A model generated the notes under the pieces. That model made no database searches, was not told the DNA's origin, and was given only the letters and a program-made list of their open reading frames with translations. Position numbers and translations under genes: made by a program. Shown piece by piece: positions 1,231 to 31,390 of a stretch of 40,618 bases of DNA. This DNA is from Alphaproteobacteria bacterium (GTDB lineage: Bacteria; Pseudomonadota; Alphaproteobacteria; JAPYRI01): assembly GCA_029941135.1 (NCBI GenBank), contig JAPYRI010000017.1:1-40618 (forward strand), read 5' to 3'. Position 1 is the stretch's first letter. Every line of letters begins with the position of its first letter.

Positions 1231-2415
1231 TCAGTCGACGACACCGGTCGCATGGTAATTACCAATTTGATCCGATGACCGACCAAGTTCGAGCAAAATT
1301 TCATCTGTATGCTGGCCCAATGTCGGGGCCTCAAAACGAATTTCCGAAGGTGTTTCGCCAAACCGGGCGGGTGGCTTGGGCATCCGCATTGTCCCTGCTT
1401 TCGAGTGAACGACTTCGGTAATCGAGCCTCGGTGGCGAATTTGCGGGTCGTTGTGAACTTCATCCAAGGCATTCACCCGGGCATAAGGAACTTCCTCCGC
1501 GTCCAGACGCGCGCAGATATCATTTGTCGACCACTGTGAGACCGCTTCATCCAATATCTCGCCGATTTCCGCCAACCTTCCAATACGATCGAGGATCGTG
1601 ACAAACCGGGGGTCGGTGCCCAGTTCAGGTTTTTCAATTGCCCGGCACATGCCTTGCCACTCGGAGTCCGAAACGCAGAAATAAGTGACGTAACCATCGG
1701 TCGTGCGGGTTATTCGATAAGCTTCGCTCAGTGCCGGCATAGGGCGAATTCCCTCGCCGGTAAGAGTGTGGTTCCACATACCATCCGGCCATAGAAACGC
1801 GAGTCCGGAATCGACCATTGCAATTTCAATATACTGCCCGCTAGCGCCGCGCTCCCGGGCGAACAGGGCGGCTGTGATCGCTTGAGCTGCCGTGAGGGCG
1901 GTGGCTTTGTCGCACACAATATTCCGAATGAGCTCTGGCTCGCCGCCGTGCGGTGCCGCCTGGCAGGCAGCAAAGCCGGTGACACCTTGAATTACCGGGT
2001 CGTAAACCCGCCGATTGGCGTAGGGTCCGTCATCGCCAAACCCGCTAATCGAAGCGAAAATCAAGTCAGGATTAATTTTGCACAGGACAGCATACCCGAT
2101 ACCCATTCGATCCATGGTGCCAGGCCGATAGTTCTGCACAATAACATCGGCATCACGCACCAGATCAAACAGAATTTCCCGTCCTTCAGCTTCGCTCAAA
2201 TTGAGGGCAATTGACCGTTTGTTGCGGTTCAACACGGCAAACATCGCGGTAATTCCACCCCGTTCTTGGCCTGACATGCGAGAGATATCACCGGTTTTCG
2301 GTTGTTCAACTTTTATAACATCGGCGCCCTGATCGGCCAGCATTTGCACGGCCATAGGGCCAGAGACGACATTTGACAAATCGATGATGTGAACGCCTTC
2401 AAGTGCTCCAGCCAT
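1231..2415 (-). CDS. CaiB/BaiF family CoA-transferase (copy 2)
   Basis: Class III CoA-transferase, 394 aa from the chosen start. The ORF track extends to 2535, but that would overlap the tolC-SPOR stop. The ATG at 2415 gives MAGALEGVHIIDLSNVVSGP, matching the start of the downstream paralogue, and has AAGG about 8 nt upstream; MSMAG at 2421 is the alternative. It has the same blocks as copy 1: LADQGADVIKVEQPK, NRNKRSIALN, NYRPGTMDRMGIGY and VCDKATALTAAQAI with the presumed catalytic Asp. The copies are 42 nt apart and probably co-transcribed, with the tolC-SPOR gene 106 nt upstream on the same strand. Divergence between the copies suggests different acids or a hetero-oligomer; neither can be decided here. 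Confidence 0.93.
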   Translation of the reverse strand: MAGALEGVHIIDLSNVVSGPMAVQMLADQGADVIKVEQPKTGDISRMSGQERGGITAMFAVLNRNKRSIALNLSEAEGREILFDLVRDADVIVQNYRPGTMDRMGIGYAVLCKINPDLIFASISGFGDDGPYANRRVYDPVIQGVTGFAACQAAPHGGEPELIRNIVCDKATALTAAQAITAALFARERGASGQYIEIAMVDSGLAFLWPDGMWNHTLTGEGIRPMPALSEAYRITRTTDGYVTYFCVSDSEWQGMCRAIEKPELGTDPRFVTILDRIGRLAEIGEILDEAVSQWSTNDICARLDAEEVPYARVNALDEVHNDPQIRHRGSITEVVHSKAGTMRMPKPPARFGETPSEIRFEAPTLGQHTDEILLELGRSSDQIGNYHATGVVD

Positions 2416-2521
2416 AGACATTGCCTTTTTCCGTAATGGGGCAGTTAGTATCAGTCGCAATACTGCCAAACTGCTGATCTCTGTCGTGAGTATATCGCAC
2501 GGCCGGGAAGGTGAAAGGCGT

Positions 2522-4375
2522 CTAGTGCCGCACAATCCAGCAATTTTGTCCTTGATCTTTCAAGGATTGGCACAGTTGCTGAGATGCCTCTTTATCTGAT
2601 TTGGGCCCAACCCGCAGGCGATAATATTGTTGGTCTCCGTTGAGCATTACCCCGATCACGTTGGATGAATGATCACCCAGAATGTTGGGGTGTTTTTTTG
2701 TCAGTTTCTCCCATCCCCGGTCTGCACCTTGGATGGTACGGTAGGCCGCTAATTGAACCAGATATTTTTTTGCCCCTGCATAATTCGCCGCTTCGAATTC
2801 AGATGTCGCTGCCATCGATTGAAATTGTTCACCTGGGGACCGGGTAAGGCTTGCGCCTTGGGAATTTGGCACTGCTGTTGGCTTACTATCTGTATTATCT
2901 TTTAACGCAGCACCTTCCGCAGGCATTGCGCTATTTTCACCTGCTTCTGGCTGTTCTCCCGAAGTGGTCGCGGGGCTGGTGTCCACGTTGGGTAGAGGTT
3001 CGTCGTTTGCGCTTTGTCCCAATCCAATCCATCTGTAGCGGACTTGGCGGTAATTTATTGCGGGATCATAACTTTCGACATCGAGGTCTAGTTTTTGAGG
3101 TGATAGTTCACCGATCAAAGATAGTATTTGATAGGCGGCCACGTGTTCATCACGGCGGGCATTCTCAAGGGCGACGCGGGAATCTAACAATCTCTGTTCT
3201 TCATCCAGTACATCAAGGGTCGTGCGCGAGCCAACCAATGCCTCTTGCCGTACGCCTTCATACGCTATCTCGTTCGCTCTCACTTGTTCTTTGCGGGAGA
3301 TAATATTGCTTTTAACCGCGAGAAAATCGGCCCACTGATCCTTCAACCGTTTTCTGACTTCTCTGTCAATGCGTAGCGTCTCAATCCGCCGTTGATTGTG
3401 AATTTGACGGGCTTCACGAACCCGAGAACTAGCGCCGCCCGCCTGATACAGGGGAATACTCACGCGGGCCATGACAATTCGGTCACGGTTATAGGTGCGA
3501 AATTGGCTAGGTTCCTTGATTCGCGAATATTCGCCCTGGACAGAAACCAACGGCAACATGTTGCCAACTGTGCGGCGCAGGAAATGCCGCGCGGCTTCTT
3601 CACTGTGGCGTGCGGCCACGAGAATCGGATTCTGCGCAATCGCTATTGATATCGCGTCATCGACATTTGCTGGCAATGCCGGGAATCCAGTGCCAGCCTC
3701 TAGTTGACTGGGCAGCTGACCAACATGTCTTTGATACCGTGCGCGACTGCCACTTAATCGGGCTTCGGAAATTGTGAGGTTGGACAAAGTAGCGGACAAA
3801 GCCGCTTTTGACTGCGCGACGTCTGTCTGGGTAATTTCGCCGACTTTAAAGCGATCTTCAGAAGCAGCAAGTTGCTGGCGAAGGACTTGAACATTGTTGC
3901 GGTTCAATTCCTGTACCACTTGATCTTGGCGCACATCGAAATAGGCCGTGGCGGTGTTCAATAAGACGTCCTGCTCGGCCGAATGCAAATTTGCCCTGCC
4001 TTCGTAAACTTGGCTTTTCGCTTGGCGCATTTCCGCAACTGTTTGTCCACCTCGATATATGGGTTGGTCGAGAGTAAATCCCCACCGAAAAGGGTTGAAT
4101 TGAACGTCTGGGTTAACTGGTGAATTCGCGCCGCCAATGCCGGCGTCTTGATGTCGTTCTTCATACGACGCTTCACCGGCCAGGGTTGGCCGCCAGCCAG
4201 ATACCGCCTGTGCCATTCCTTCATCAATAGCGCGCAGCTCAGCACGGCGCGCTTCCAAAAGGGGGCTGTTGTGGTATGCGATTGCAAGTGAATCCTCCAG
4301 CGTCATGGATGTGGCGTTACTGGCTAGAGACCATCCGATCATTACGATCAGGCTGTGGAAAATGACGCTTTTCAT
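2522..4375 (-). CDS. TolC family outer membrane protein with C-terminal SPOR domain
   Basis: 617 aa, longer than the roughly 450 aa of an ordinary TolC. Residues 1-23 look like a signal peptide (MKSVIFHSLIVMIGWSLASNATS). Residues about 24-455 are a TolC-type outer-membrane efflux duct: TLEDSLAIAYHNSPLL, SGWRPTLAGEASY, QPIYRGGQTVAEMRQAKS, VGEITQTDVAQSKAALS, and the second-half repeat VRQEALVGSRTTLDVLDEEQRLLDSR. A Pro/Ser/Glu-rich linker of about 80 residues follows. Residues about 536-617 form a SPOR domain (KKYLVQLAAYRTIQGADRGW ... YYRLRVGP ... CWIVRH), a module known to bind denuded septal peptidoglycan. The second tolC in the window (30017-31390) is clearly homologous but lacks linker and SPOR. 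No strong ribosome site precedes the ATG. TolC and SPOR calls are firm; targeting to division sites is inference. Confidence 0.93.
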   Translation of the reverse strand: MKSVIFHSLIVMIGWSLASNATSMTLEDSLAIAYHNSPLLEARRAELRAIDEGMAQAVSGWRPTLAGEASYEERHQDAGIGGANSPVNPDVQFNPFRWGFTLDQPIYRGGQTVAEMRQAKSQVYEGRANLHSAEQDVLLNTATAYFDVRQDQVVQELNRNNVQVLRQQLAASEDRFKVGEITQTDVAQSKAALSATLSNLTISEARLSGSRARYQRHVGQLPSQLEAGTGFPALPANVDDAISIAIAQNPILVAARHSEEAARHFLRRTVGNMLPLVSVQGEYSRIKEPSQFRTYNRDRIVMARVSIPLYQAGGASSRVREARQIHNQRRIETLRIDREVRKRLKDQWADFLAVKSNIISRKEQVRANEIAYEGVRQEALVGSRTTLDVLDEEQRLLDSRVALENARRDEHVAAYQILSLIGELSPQKLDLDVESYDPAINYRQVRYRWIGLGQSANDEPLPNVDTSPATTSGEQPEAGENSAMPAEGAALKDNTDSKPTAVPNSQGASLTRSPGEQFQSMAATSEFEAANYAGAKKYLVQLAAYRTIQGADRGWEKLTKKHPNILGDHSSNVIGVMLNGDQQYYRLRVGPKSDKEASQQLCQSLKDQGQNCWIVRH

Positions 4376-10655: not shown

Positions 10656-12257
10656 TTAGCCATTTGGTTGCAAGCGAACAATTTTAGCGACCGCTTCGGG
10701 CAGGGATGAATATGCCGACCATACATCGCCGGTCTCTTCATCGACAGCAATGTGCCGTACATAAGCGGGTTCTGTGGGCCAGCGAAATTCGGTCCAAATC
10801 TCGGTTGCAGGATCAAATCTGAAAATGCTGCTGCTGAGCGAGCCCGCCATCCAAATCTCGCCGGTTTTTTGATTTACTTCGACATCGTAGGGGCCGATGG
10901 TTGACAGGCCGGGCTGAAATTGACTGAATTTTTCCGACTTAGGGTCAAATCTGGTCAACTTTCCCGTATTCCATTCGGGAATCCAAAGAATACCGTCGGG
11001 CCCAATCGCCAGGCGCCGAGGTCCGGAATTAGGCGTCGGCATATCATAACTGTTGGCGTCACCGGTGCGGGTGTTAAAGCGTATCAATTGGTTGCTGGCA
11101 AGACTGGTGCTCCACAAAATGTCATCTTGATCAATCTGCATGCCATAAGGAAGAGGTAGCCCCGCAGCCTCGGTTAGATATGCACTAGGGATTTGGTGCA
11201 CAGTAAGTTCGCCGGTACCACCGTCAATTTTGCCGATTTGCTCCGGTTTGCCGAAGTAGTCGTTGAACCAGACATTCCCCTGGCTATCCAGATCCAAGCT
11301 GTGTCCGTACATGCCTGCGTCAAACGTTTGATAGGCGCCGGTTTCCGGGTCGAGTTCAACCATCGCATCGGTCCCCCCCAGTAACATAACCAGCTTGCCG
11401 TTTGCTTTGAATTTAAGCGCGCGCACCTGGCCCAAGGTGTCGACTTTCTCGTTAATCGGGAAAGCTTCGATTTCTCCCGTGCTCGGTTCCAAAGCCCACA
11501 TTTCGTCATTGAAAAAGCCGGTAACCCAAATGCGGCGATCTGGTCCGACCACTAAATCATGGGGTAAAGCAGGGTGTTTGGGAACCGGATATTCGGTAAA
11601 ACGGGCATTCATGGCGGCGGGATTTGTGTCCTCAAGCGGCGCTGCCCCTGACATTGCTTTTTCGGTCAAATTTCCAGCCAACCACTTGGCGTACAAGTCG
11701 TCGTCAAAATCAGCCGGCGTTAATCCATACTCGTCGATTGAGCGCATGACGGCTATGGCTTCGGCCCAACTTTCGCGGCTTCGGTGCATGCCCTTTCTTG
11801 TCATCCGTGGGTGCGAAATTTCATGACAACTGGTGCAATTAACCAGAAATTCCCGTTTCATCTCGCCTTCCGGAAGCACGCTTAGCCAGTGAGAACTAGG
11901 CAATTTCTGGAGATAGTTTGGGGATGGCGATAAGGTGAAATTGATCGCATGAGCCTTGCTTTTGGTGGCTATCATTGTAACCGGCTCCGCTGTCCATTTC
12001 CGTCCGCCCGCTGTTGCCACATGGGATCCTGATTTCTGCAGCCAAATTTCGAAACGACCATTCGGACCAGATAGGCCGGTGACCGCGATGCTACTTTTCT
12101 GGTGGAGAAAAGTGATTGGCACACCGGGTAGTAAGGCACCGGCTTTATCGGTGATGGTTCCCGTCACAATTGAGTTAGCGCTCGTGGCTCCGGCTGCCAT
12201 CGCCATAAACACAAAAACAGCCGCTGTCTCAAGACAGTATTTCGTAATGTCGCGCAT
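10656..12257 (-). CDS. Secreted Vgb-like beta-propeller protein with carboxypeptidase-regulatory-like and CxxCH haem-type domains
   Basis: 533 aa. A signal peptide (about residues 1-27) is followed by a carboxypeptidase-regulatory-like Ig domain (GTITDKAGALLPGVPITF ... GPNGRFEIWL, about 32-110). Next comes a segment with CTSCHE (near 140) that looks like a single c-type haem site. Residues about 220-530 are beta-propeller blades with repeated phrases such as PHDLVVGPDRRIWVTGF, HSLDLDSQGNVWFNDY, RRLAIGPDGILWIPEW and DVEVNQKTGEIWMAGS, resembling virginiamycin B lyase/SMP-30-like propellers. It is probably a periplasmic electron-transfer or lactone-type enzyme; the substrate is unknown. AAGGGGAG precedes the ATG. 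It heads a minus-strand unit with the cupin and acyl-CoA dehydrogenase. Confidence 0.85.
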   Translation of the reverse strand: MRDITKYCLETAAVFVFMAMAAGATSANSIVTGTITDKAGALLPGVPITFLHQKSSIAVTGLSGPNGRFEIWLQKSGSHVATAGGRKWTAEPVTMIATKSKAHAINFTLSPSPNYLQKLPSSHWLSVLPEGEMKREFLVNCTSCHEISHPRMTRKGMHRSRESWAEAIAVMRSIDEYGLTPADFDDDLYAKWLAGNLTEKAMSGAAPLEDTNPAAMNARFTEYPVPKHPALPHDLVVGPDRRIWVTGFFNDEMWALEPSTGEIEAFPINEKVDTLGQVRALKFKANGKLVMLLGGTDAMVELDPETGAYQTFDAGMYGHSLDLDSQGNVWFNDYFGKPEQIGKIDGGTGELTVHQIPSAYLTEAAGLPLPYGMQIDQDDILWSTSLASNQLIRFNTRTGDANSYDMPTPNSGPRRLAIGPDGILWIPEWNTGKLTRFDPKSEKFSQFQPGLSTIGPYDVEVNQKTGEIWMAGSLSSSIFRFDPATEIWTEFRWPTEPAYVRHIAVDEETGDVWSAYSSLPEAVAKIVRLQPNG

Positions 12258-12327
12258 GAATCTCCCCTTAATTTTCGCGGCGACACCCTATCATCAGAAA
12301 CTCCGCAAGAAAGGATTTTCGCGGTCG

Positions 12328-12884
12328 AACTTGATCGACAGTCAGTCTTTCGATGACGCGGCGGGGGTGATTACGGTCCAACAGGATAACGGCAATAACA
12401 ATGTTGTCGGCACGGCTATGGGCTTAATAGCCAACATATTTGACGTCGACTCTTCCACGCAAACGCCAACGGTTCAGCGTCAGCAGACGCCAGGGTCGCA
12501 TACAACGAGGCCCATAGTGGAGGCTGCAGCCGGAGCAACACCTTGGACAGCGCTTTTGCCGGTGCGCAAGGGGTGATGGCCGTTCAACAGAATACTGGCG
12601 ACAATAACGTTATGTTGTCATCAATGCGTATTCTCGGGACAGACGAAACCATAAACCCGTTTGGGCCCGCATCCTCCTTGACCGAGTTGAATACGACAAT
12701 GACAGGTAATTTATCGACCGCCAGCAGCCATAAAAACTTTTCCGAGTACATCAACAAAACCTCAGACGTTGCGAACGGCAGTGGCGGTACATTCGTCATT
12801 CAACAGAACACTGGGAGCAATACCGGCATGGGTTCTGCAATATCTTTAGTGGTCAACGGCCCGGCGATGTCTTTCGCTTGGTAA
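12328..12884 (+). pseudogene. Decayed curlin-like QQNxGxNN repeat protein
   Basis: Three copies of a repeat resembling GVxxVQQNxGxNNVxxxA are spread over two frames. Copy 1 (12328-12435) reads NLIDSQSFDDAAGVITVQQDNGNNNVV. Copy 2 (12537-12641) reads NTLDSAFAGAQGVMAVQQNTGDNNVM in another frame. Copy 3 (12786-12857) reads GTFVIQQNTGSNTGMGSA in the frame of copy 2. NTLDS lies upstream of the apparent start of the 113-aa ORF, so the true gene ran through and a 1-nt lesion near 12455-12462 shifted it. No signal peptide or credible start precedes copy 1, so the 5' end is lost too. The repeat style recalls curlin-like or other secreted Asn/Gln-rich repeats; family assignment is tentative. Confidence 0.55.
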
Positions 12885-30016: not shown

Positions 30017-31390
30017 ATGAAACGCCTTATTCCCTTGATTTCGGTTGGTCTTATTGGATTTGTGATGATACCTCATGCGCCTGCGGCGACTCTTGAGGAC
30101 GCCTTAGTCGGCGCGTATCGCACTAATCCGACTATACAAGCTGGCCGCGCGCAACAACGCGCAACAGACGAAACAGTGGCCCAAGCCATGTCGGGCTGGC
30201 GCCCCACTTTATCTAGCTTTGGGTCTTACAGTCATGTGCTCCAGGATTCTGGAATCGGTGGTGCAAACAGCACCGCCAACCCTGACGTAAAATACAACCC
30301 GGCGGGAATTGGGGCTAACCTGTCGCAGCCGTTGTTTCGTGGTGGGCGGACAATAGCCGGGATCCGGGAAGCGAAAAGTTCGGTCCAGGTCGGACGCGAG
30401 AATTTGATATCGATTGAACAGGTTGTACTGCTGCAGTCAATTACGTCTTATATGGATGTTTTCCAAGATCAGGCTGTTCTCGAACTCAACGGTCGCAATG
30501 TTCAGGTATTGACGCGCCAACTGGATGCAACGCGCGATCGTTTTGAAGTCGGTGAGATTACCCGTACCGACGTTGCTCAAGCCGAAGCCGCATTGTCTTC
30601 GGCGATTTCGAGCCGAACTCTGGCCGATGCACAGTTGACTGCAAGTCGGGCTGAATACACAAAATTAGTGGGTTCCGTTCCTAGCGATTTGGAGGAACCG
30701 GTATCCCTGCCGAACCTTCCGGGTAGCGAAGAAGAGAGCAAAGCTATGGCTCTTGCGGCCAATCCGTCTATAGGAGCGGCGAAACATACCGAAGCGGCGG
30801 CACGGCAGGGCGTAAAGGGGGCTGTGGGGGCGTTATTGCCGTCAGCCGACGCTACGGGAGAGATTTCGTATACCGATGATGCCAGCCAATTTGCCACGTT
30901 TGTGCGGGTAAAACGGGTCACGGGAGAGATCACCGTTCCCGTGTATCAAGCGGGCAGGGTGTATTCTCGAGTTCGTGAAGCGCGGCAAATTCACCGCCAA
31001 AGACGTCTGGAAGTGGTGGAAAATCAACGGCAAGTCATTGAGCAAGCCGTAACCACATGGTCAAATTTCAGCGCAGTTCAGAGCACGATTATTTCTCGTC
31101 AGGAACAAGTGCGGGCAAATGAGATCGCCCTTGAAGGCGTCAGGCAAGAGGCAATTGTGGGCTCACGGACAACTCTTGATGTTCTGGAGGAAGAACAGAG
31201 ATTGCTGGACTCGAGGGTTGAATTGATACGCGCCAAACGTGACCAGCAAGTGGCCGCCTACCAATTACTATCTGTGGTTGGTGGCATGACTGCGGCCAAG
31301 TTAAATTTGCCGGTGAACGTTTACGATCCCGACACCAACTACCATAAGGTTCGCAATGCCTGGATCGGCTTCGGACAGTCTGCCGAATAA
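30017..31390 (+). CDS. tolC: TolC family outer membrane efflux protein
   Basis: 457 aa. Signal peptide MKRLIPLISVGLIGFVMIPHAPAA, then the two-repeat TolC fold: TLEDALVGAYRTNPTIQAGRAQQRATDE, SQPLFRGGRTIAGIREAKSS, VGEITRTDVAQAEAALSSA and, in the second repeat, VRQEAIVGSRTTLDVLEEEQRLLDSRVELIRAKRDQQVAAYQLLSVVG. It is the outer-membrane duct for type I secretion and RND/MFS efflux. It ends in a short IGFGQSAE tail without SPOR, in contrast to the paralogue at 2522-4375. It follows the pcm-like gene by 39 nt and precedes popZ, an arrangement common in alphaproteobacteria, so this is likely the housekeeping tolC. Confidence 0.95.
   Translation: MKRLIPLISVGLIGFVMIPHAPAATLEDALVGAYRTNPTIQAGRAQQRATDETVAQAMSGWRPTLSSFGSYSHVLQDSGIGGANSTANPDVKYNPAGIGANLSQPLFRGGRTIAGIREAKSSVQVGRENLISIEQVVLLQSITSYMDVFQDQAVLELNGRNVQVLTRQLDATRDRFEVGEITRTDVAQAEAALSSAISSRTLADAQLTASRAEYTKLVGSVPSDLEEPVSLPNLPGSEEESKAMALAANPSIGAAKHTEAAARQGVKGAVGALLPSADATGEISYTDDASQFATFVRVKRVTGEITVPVYQAGRVYSRVREARQIHRQRRLEVVENQRQVIEQAVTTWSNFSAVQSTIISRQEQVRANEIALEGVRQEAIVGSRTTLDVLEEEQRLLDSRVELIRAKRDQQVAAYQLLSVVGGMTAAKLNLPVNVYDPDTNYHKVRNAWIGFGQSAE

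Follow-up and report, generated by a model that had tools for sequence, protein, structure and literature searches.

A probable 3' remnant of a FapC-like fibre-subunit gene in an alphaproteobacterial genome

The closest described counterpart of the locus analysed here is the Fap system of Pseudomonas, whose secreted subunits carry imperfect repeats of ~37-39 residues with conserved Gly, Gln and Asn, separated by linkers. A 2013 survey recorded Fap only in Beta-, Gamma- and Deltaproteobacteria, with Alphaproteobacteria absent (PMC3792158), and a 2025 analysis extends Fap operons to many Pseudomonadota families and some other phyla, Alphaproteobacteria going unnamed in its accessible text (PMC12822426). 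In the same work Fap is described as evolutionarily fixed, with an almost invariable number of three repeats. Variants of up to 16 repeats have been modelled, the largest named in the accessible part of PMC12392863. Here we describe a stretch of 40,618 nucleotides of alphaproteobacterial DNA (the window), in which positions 12328-12884 are best explained, with a probability that we put at roughly 80%, as the 3' remnant of a FapC-like subunit gene from a Fap-like amyloid system, in a lineage that is losing that system.

Three repeat units in two reading frames

The following features were located in the window:

12258..12312, plus strand: stretch where the missing 5' part should start (three-frame translation)
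12328..12438, plus strand: repeat unit 1, + frame 1 (relatives-only profile 6.2e-10; tblastn to the G137 relative)
12444..12465, plus strand: interval of the frame change (upstream TGA, tblastn junction at 12465, codon statistics)
12465..12884, plus strand: second-frame part, with linker, units 2 and 3, C-terminus and stop (tblastn, structure prediction)
12537..12644, plus strand: repeat unit 2, + frame 0 (relatives-only profile, 46.2 bits)
12753..12860, plus strand: repeat unit 3, the final one ahead of the stop, frame 0 (relatives-only profile, 20.2 bits)

The units are of an Asn/Gln repeat type, unit 1 reading RSNLIDSQSFDDAAGVITVQQDNGNNNVVGTAMGLIAN. Unit 1 lies in + frame 1 and units 2 and 3 in + frame 0, the frame being given as the first base modulo 3. 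The N-to-N spacing is 209 bases between units 1 and 2 and 216 bases between units 2 and 3, and since 209 is not divisible by three the first two units fall in different frames. An original prediction, made from the DNA letters, had proposed three matching units in two frames, and a profile built only from the units of other genomes confirmed this: on E-values scaled for a genome of 3.02 Mb, units 2 and 3 together reached 2.4e-14 and unit 1 reached 6.2e-10, and no matches were obtained on the reversed window or on 25 codon-block shuffles. The NTLDS motif that opens unit 2 begins at 12537, six bases 5' of the TTG at 12543 listed as the start of the open reading frame, so that an NxxDS motif does precede the listed start, as had been claimed.

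When an intact 805-residue relative, from genome G137, was aligned to the window by tblastn, it matched 12313-12465 in the first frame (49% identity) and 12465-12857 in the second (33% identity). The two pieces are separated by four query residues and have a joint E-value of about 1e-21; the part that covers unit 1 corresponds to G137 residues 670-719 in stop-to-stop frame numbering. Because the relative aligns through both frames, the window units represent the 3' end of a longer gene that once ran through them, and they are equivalent to the last three of the eleven units in the G137 protein. Codon statistics derived from twenty long window genes favoured the first frame in 12390-12449 and the second in 12450-12509. 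The second frame is closed upstream by a TGA at 12441-12443, which places the frame change between 12444 and about 12465; codon statistics and tblastn thus agree on a break close to the predicted 12450-12465.

Homology to the intact relative begins at about 12313, and the neighbouring minus-strand gene starts at 12257. Translations of the intervening 12258-12312 revealed neither a signal peptide nor homologous 5' sequence in any frame. Compared with the G137 protein, the remnant lacks the first eight units together with the signal-like N-terminus before them, in keeping with the prediction that the 5' end is missing.

The remnant lies between genes for a Vgb-lyase-type protein and a histidine phosphatase, and the repeat protein stands alone in the window, where no remnants of other Fap genes were found. 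The divergent neighbour (10656-12257, minus strand) combines a carboxypeptidase-regulatory-like domain, a CTSCH haem-type motif and a Vgb-lyase-type propeller in one protein. Elsewhere, the window encodes paralogous TolC-type outer-membrane efflux proteins at 2522-4375 (minus strand) and 30017-31390 (plus strand), the former with a C-terminal SPOR fusion (OEP 6.9e-54, SPOR 1.1e-14), and two adjacent, clearly paralogous CoA-transferase-type proteins at 4-1188 and 1231-2535 (both minus strand).

Intact relatives and their neighbouring genes

When 190 alphaproteobacterial genomes were sampled, a profile of the three units detected intact relatives in two, the window's own genome not counted, and a 36-unit profile added no further relatives in 385 genomes, which suggests that the repeat type is rare in Alphaproteobacteria. 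Searches with the 113-residue frame returned only the window itself by tblastn in 96 genomes, and no relatives in a pattern search of named genomes. The intact relatives have 11 units in 805 residues (G137), 42 units in 3063 residues (G147) and, in a plasmid-borne gene of Indioceanicola profundi, 8 units. Their imperfect repeats of about 36-40 residues are joined by linkers of about 35, giving a period of 62-83 residues, and the alignment of 36 units has the consensus GxxxVQQNNGxxN. All have N-termini that appear signal-like by eye; full-length relatives with a signal peptide had been proposed as a check on the original prediction, and their existence supports its view of the locus as the remnant of a secreted protein of the fibre type. 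In the loci L067 and L069, the 42-unit locus is also present in the Alphaproteobacteria MAG PL24a_bin.80, on an 89,396-base contig as long as that of G147, and in MAG IP29b_bin.19, which is labelled Anaerolineae, the contig in this case being probably mis-binned.

Directly downstream of the intact genes are genes for a short secreted one-unit protein and a C39 peptidase, the latter FapD-like by homology and adjoining the subunit gene in all three relatives. The G137 peptidase matched the NCBIfam FapD model NF058616 at 8.4e-52 and a protein of the same locus with coiled-coil and barrel regions matched the FapF model NF058560 at 1.3e-41; the same FapD-like and FapF-like pair is present in the G147 locus. 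These genes correspond to the FapD C39 peptidase and the FapF coiled-coil/barrel transporter of Pseudomonas. No pore gene was identified beside the Indioceanicola gene. All scores lie well below the NCBIfam equivalog cut-offs (FapD 175.6 against 330 bits, FapF 142.8 against 700, FapB 20.3 against 190). The loci also differ from the order fapABCDEF with three-repeat FapB and FapC: the relatives have 8, 11 or 42 repeats, a one-unit gene precedes fapD, and neither FapA nor a three-repeat FapB was identified in them. For these reasons we use the term Fap-like and refrain from assigning the system to Fap proper. The Acinetobacter Fil system offers a second comparison, since the relatives' C39 peptidase and outer-membrane protein match the NCBIfam FilB/FilC models at 2.9e-38 and 3.8e-11, respectively, but these matches are weaker than those to FapD and FapF.

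Among 80 public FapD-like loci, FapF was also present in 73 and an open reading frame bearing a repeat unit lay just before FapD in 29. In several Fap-like accessory proteins (L028, L029, L098, L121 and similar loci) and in the G147 FapF we observed an LSxxELxxxRGG-like stretch that resembles the double-glycine leaders cut by C39 peptidases and may possibly be a signature of FapD substrates.

State of the system in the window's genome

The genome assembly that contains the window consists of 178 contigs and is 95% complete. Across it, five units were detected: the three in the window and one each at C29:12397-12525 and C46:4052-4171. The C29 copy (G000:C29:12397-12525; L026 3239-3549) has a signal-like N-terminus started by GTG and requires a frame change just ahead of its unit. 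A strong terminator-like hairpin, judged by eye, follows this copy. The C46 copy is intact and encodes a short protein that opens with a signal-like sequence and carries a single unit. FapF is represented by a homologue at C15:28888-29988, with about 50% identity to the G137 protein; it contains an internal TGA and an internal TAG, lacks its N-terminus and has no in-frame signal peptide, and by these features we class it as a pseudogene. Some two kilobases from it, part of a sigma-54-type regulator remains, a C-terminal piece that is spread across two frames and resembles regulators in other Fap-like loci. FapD was not found in this 95% complete assembly and could sit in a gap. In the search for relatives, the genomes nearest to the window's own were no closer than the same class.

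It could be argued that the frame change arose in sequencing or assembly, so that the remnant is truncated only at its 5' end or is an intact gene with a misassembled start. The contig does come from a draft in 178 pieces, and the C29 unit copy would also need a correction of frame. On this explanation, however, one would not expect the 5' part with its signal peptide to be absent in all frames, the long neighbouring genes of the window to be intact, or the FapF of the genome to carry two stops, which break the system at a further site. Since genes are broken in several places, real decay is likelier than a single assembly error; we infer that the decay is real and consider an error unlikely.

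A working gene is much less probable still, whether as a two-unit protein started in the second frame or through programmed frameshifting or phase variation. The second frame is indeed free of stops for 146 codons, the frame break recurs in the C29 copy, and the small one-unit gene at C46 is intact with a signal-like start. Nevertheless, neither a signal peptide nor any promoter-like or terminator-like site serves a plus-strand gene at this position (no promoter-like site for the remnant was found, and the two terminator-like sites are both on the other strand), no simple repeat tract or slippery run was seen at the break, and the FapF exporter is itself a pseudogene. On these grounds both the working short gene and programmed frameshifting were rejected. 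Since this genome has a broken exporter gene as well as the broken fibre gene described here, the window copy is best read as a pseudogene, and given the lost 5' part, the frame change and the FapF pseudogene, production of a fibre from it is unlikely.

Family assignment and variation in repeat number

The original prediction had labelled the repeats curlin-like and suggested a comparison with curlin models. Like the window repeats, curli are built from an Asn/Gln-rich repeat protein, here presumed to be a secreted amyloid, and CsgA and Fap repeats share a Q/N-X10-Q/N spacing (PMC6173800); yet descent from a curli gene (CsgA/CsgB) is very improbable, because the window proteins matched no curlin family of Pfam even with the threshold relaxed to E = 10 (only one irrelevant weak match appeared), Curlin_rpt PF07012 was silent in the region whereas the E. 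coli control exceeded the cut-off in the same search, the period is about 70-73 residues with a core of 36-40 and linkers, against about 22 in CsgA (PMC6173800), and the relatives adjoin export genes of another kind, the FapD- and FapF-like ones. At the level of family models the curli assignment is refuted. The functional guess was nevertheless close, and only the family wrong, since secreted amyloids rich in Asn and Gln are formed by both systems.

Direct matches of the repeats to Fap models were weak. Pfam and NCBIfam gave nothing significant for the window repeat proteins; the NCBIfam FapB model scored a non-significant 0.39 against the window protein, 3.3e-4 against the Indioceanicola relative and no match against the G147 protein, and as a genome query it was uninformative, with zero matches even in the controls. 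An iterated repeat profile, on the other hand, reached a four-unit protein of Acidithiobacillus encoded beside fapD (L121) at 3.2e-32, and this protein matches FapB at 2.6e-13. Acidithiobacillus is listed among the Fap-bearing genera with many-repeat FapC (PMC3792158). The published motif of the third FapB repeat (PMC12392863) agrees in spacing with GxxxVQQNNGxxN when compared by eye. The link to Fap is therefore carried by the partner genes and the Acidithiobacillus bridge, the window units themselves matching no Fap model strongly, and on this sequence evidence we group the intact relatives with the Fap functional amyloids.

Structure predictions, made with alignments of 44 two-unit segments, gave five predicted beta strands per unit both for the second-frame piece of the window (mean pLDDT 79.8) and for a two-unit piece of the G137 protein (mean pLDDT 78.3). 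Five strands per layer are likewise described for the cryo-EM structure of FapC (PMC12392863). Each of two fold searches over 350,542 PDB chains placed the FapC entries 9nqd and 9u4u at the top, in ranks one and two, although the matches were weak (E 0.01 to 1.3, TM-scores 0.14-0.20), and we take this ranking as a pointer to a FapC-like fold, not as proof. Sequence searches of the PDB with the repeat profile or the intact relatives returned nothing relevant.

The alphaproteobacterial loci share with Pseudomonas Fap the partner genes, the predicted strand number and probably the repeat type, but differ in having 8, 11 or 42 repeats where PMC12392863 and PMC12822426 give almost always three, and in carrying a separate short one-unit protein just upstream of FapD; the window copy differs further in being a dead fragment. 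The Fap-type systems known from Acidithiobacillus and Vibrio, whose FapC has 4-16 repeats (PMC3792158), are similar in their arrangement of a fibre gene and a one-unit gene directly before fapD (L121, L136), whereas they have a QNSG-type motif in place of the QQNNG type of the alphaproteobacterial units, and fewer repeats. The 42-unit G147 protein exceeds the maximum of 16 repeats named in the accessible part of PMC12392863. It is an even question, in our judgement, whether Alphaproteobacteria hold a separate Fap-type branch with an open-ended number of repeats (8, 11, 42), of which the window lineage, with exporter and fibre genes broken, is caught midway through loss. The novelty of these loci at class level is uncertain.

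On the model of Pseudomonas Fap (PMC6173800), the ancestral protein would have crossed the inner membrane by Sec, depended on the C39 peptidase FapD and left the cell through the FapF outer-membrane pore, and its repeats would have stacked to form a biofilm amyloid fibre with one repeat in each cross-beta layer. The repeats, the change of frame, the relationship to intact genes with FapD- and FapF-like neighbours and the decayed state of this genome's FapF were established computationally; amyloid formation, the secretion route and a role in biofilms are inferred for the Fap-like proteins from the Pseudomonas system.

Overall, a window fragment that is dead by itself has drawn attention to Alphaproteobacteria whose Fap-like loci are intact. 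Should the proteins of these loci form amyloid, Fap fibres, like curli, would vary widely in repeat number, and the dependence of fibre stability on repeat number could be studied with naturally long-repeat proteins. In that case, the window's genome would illustrate the decay of such a system.
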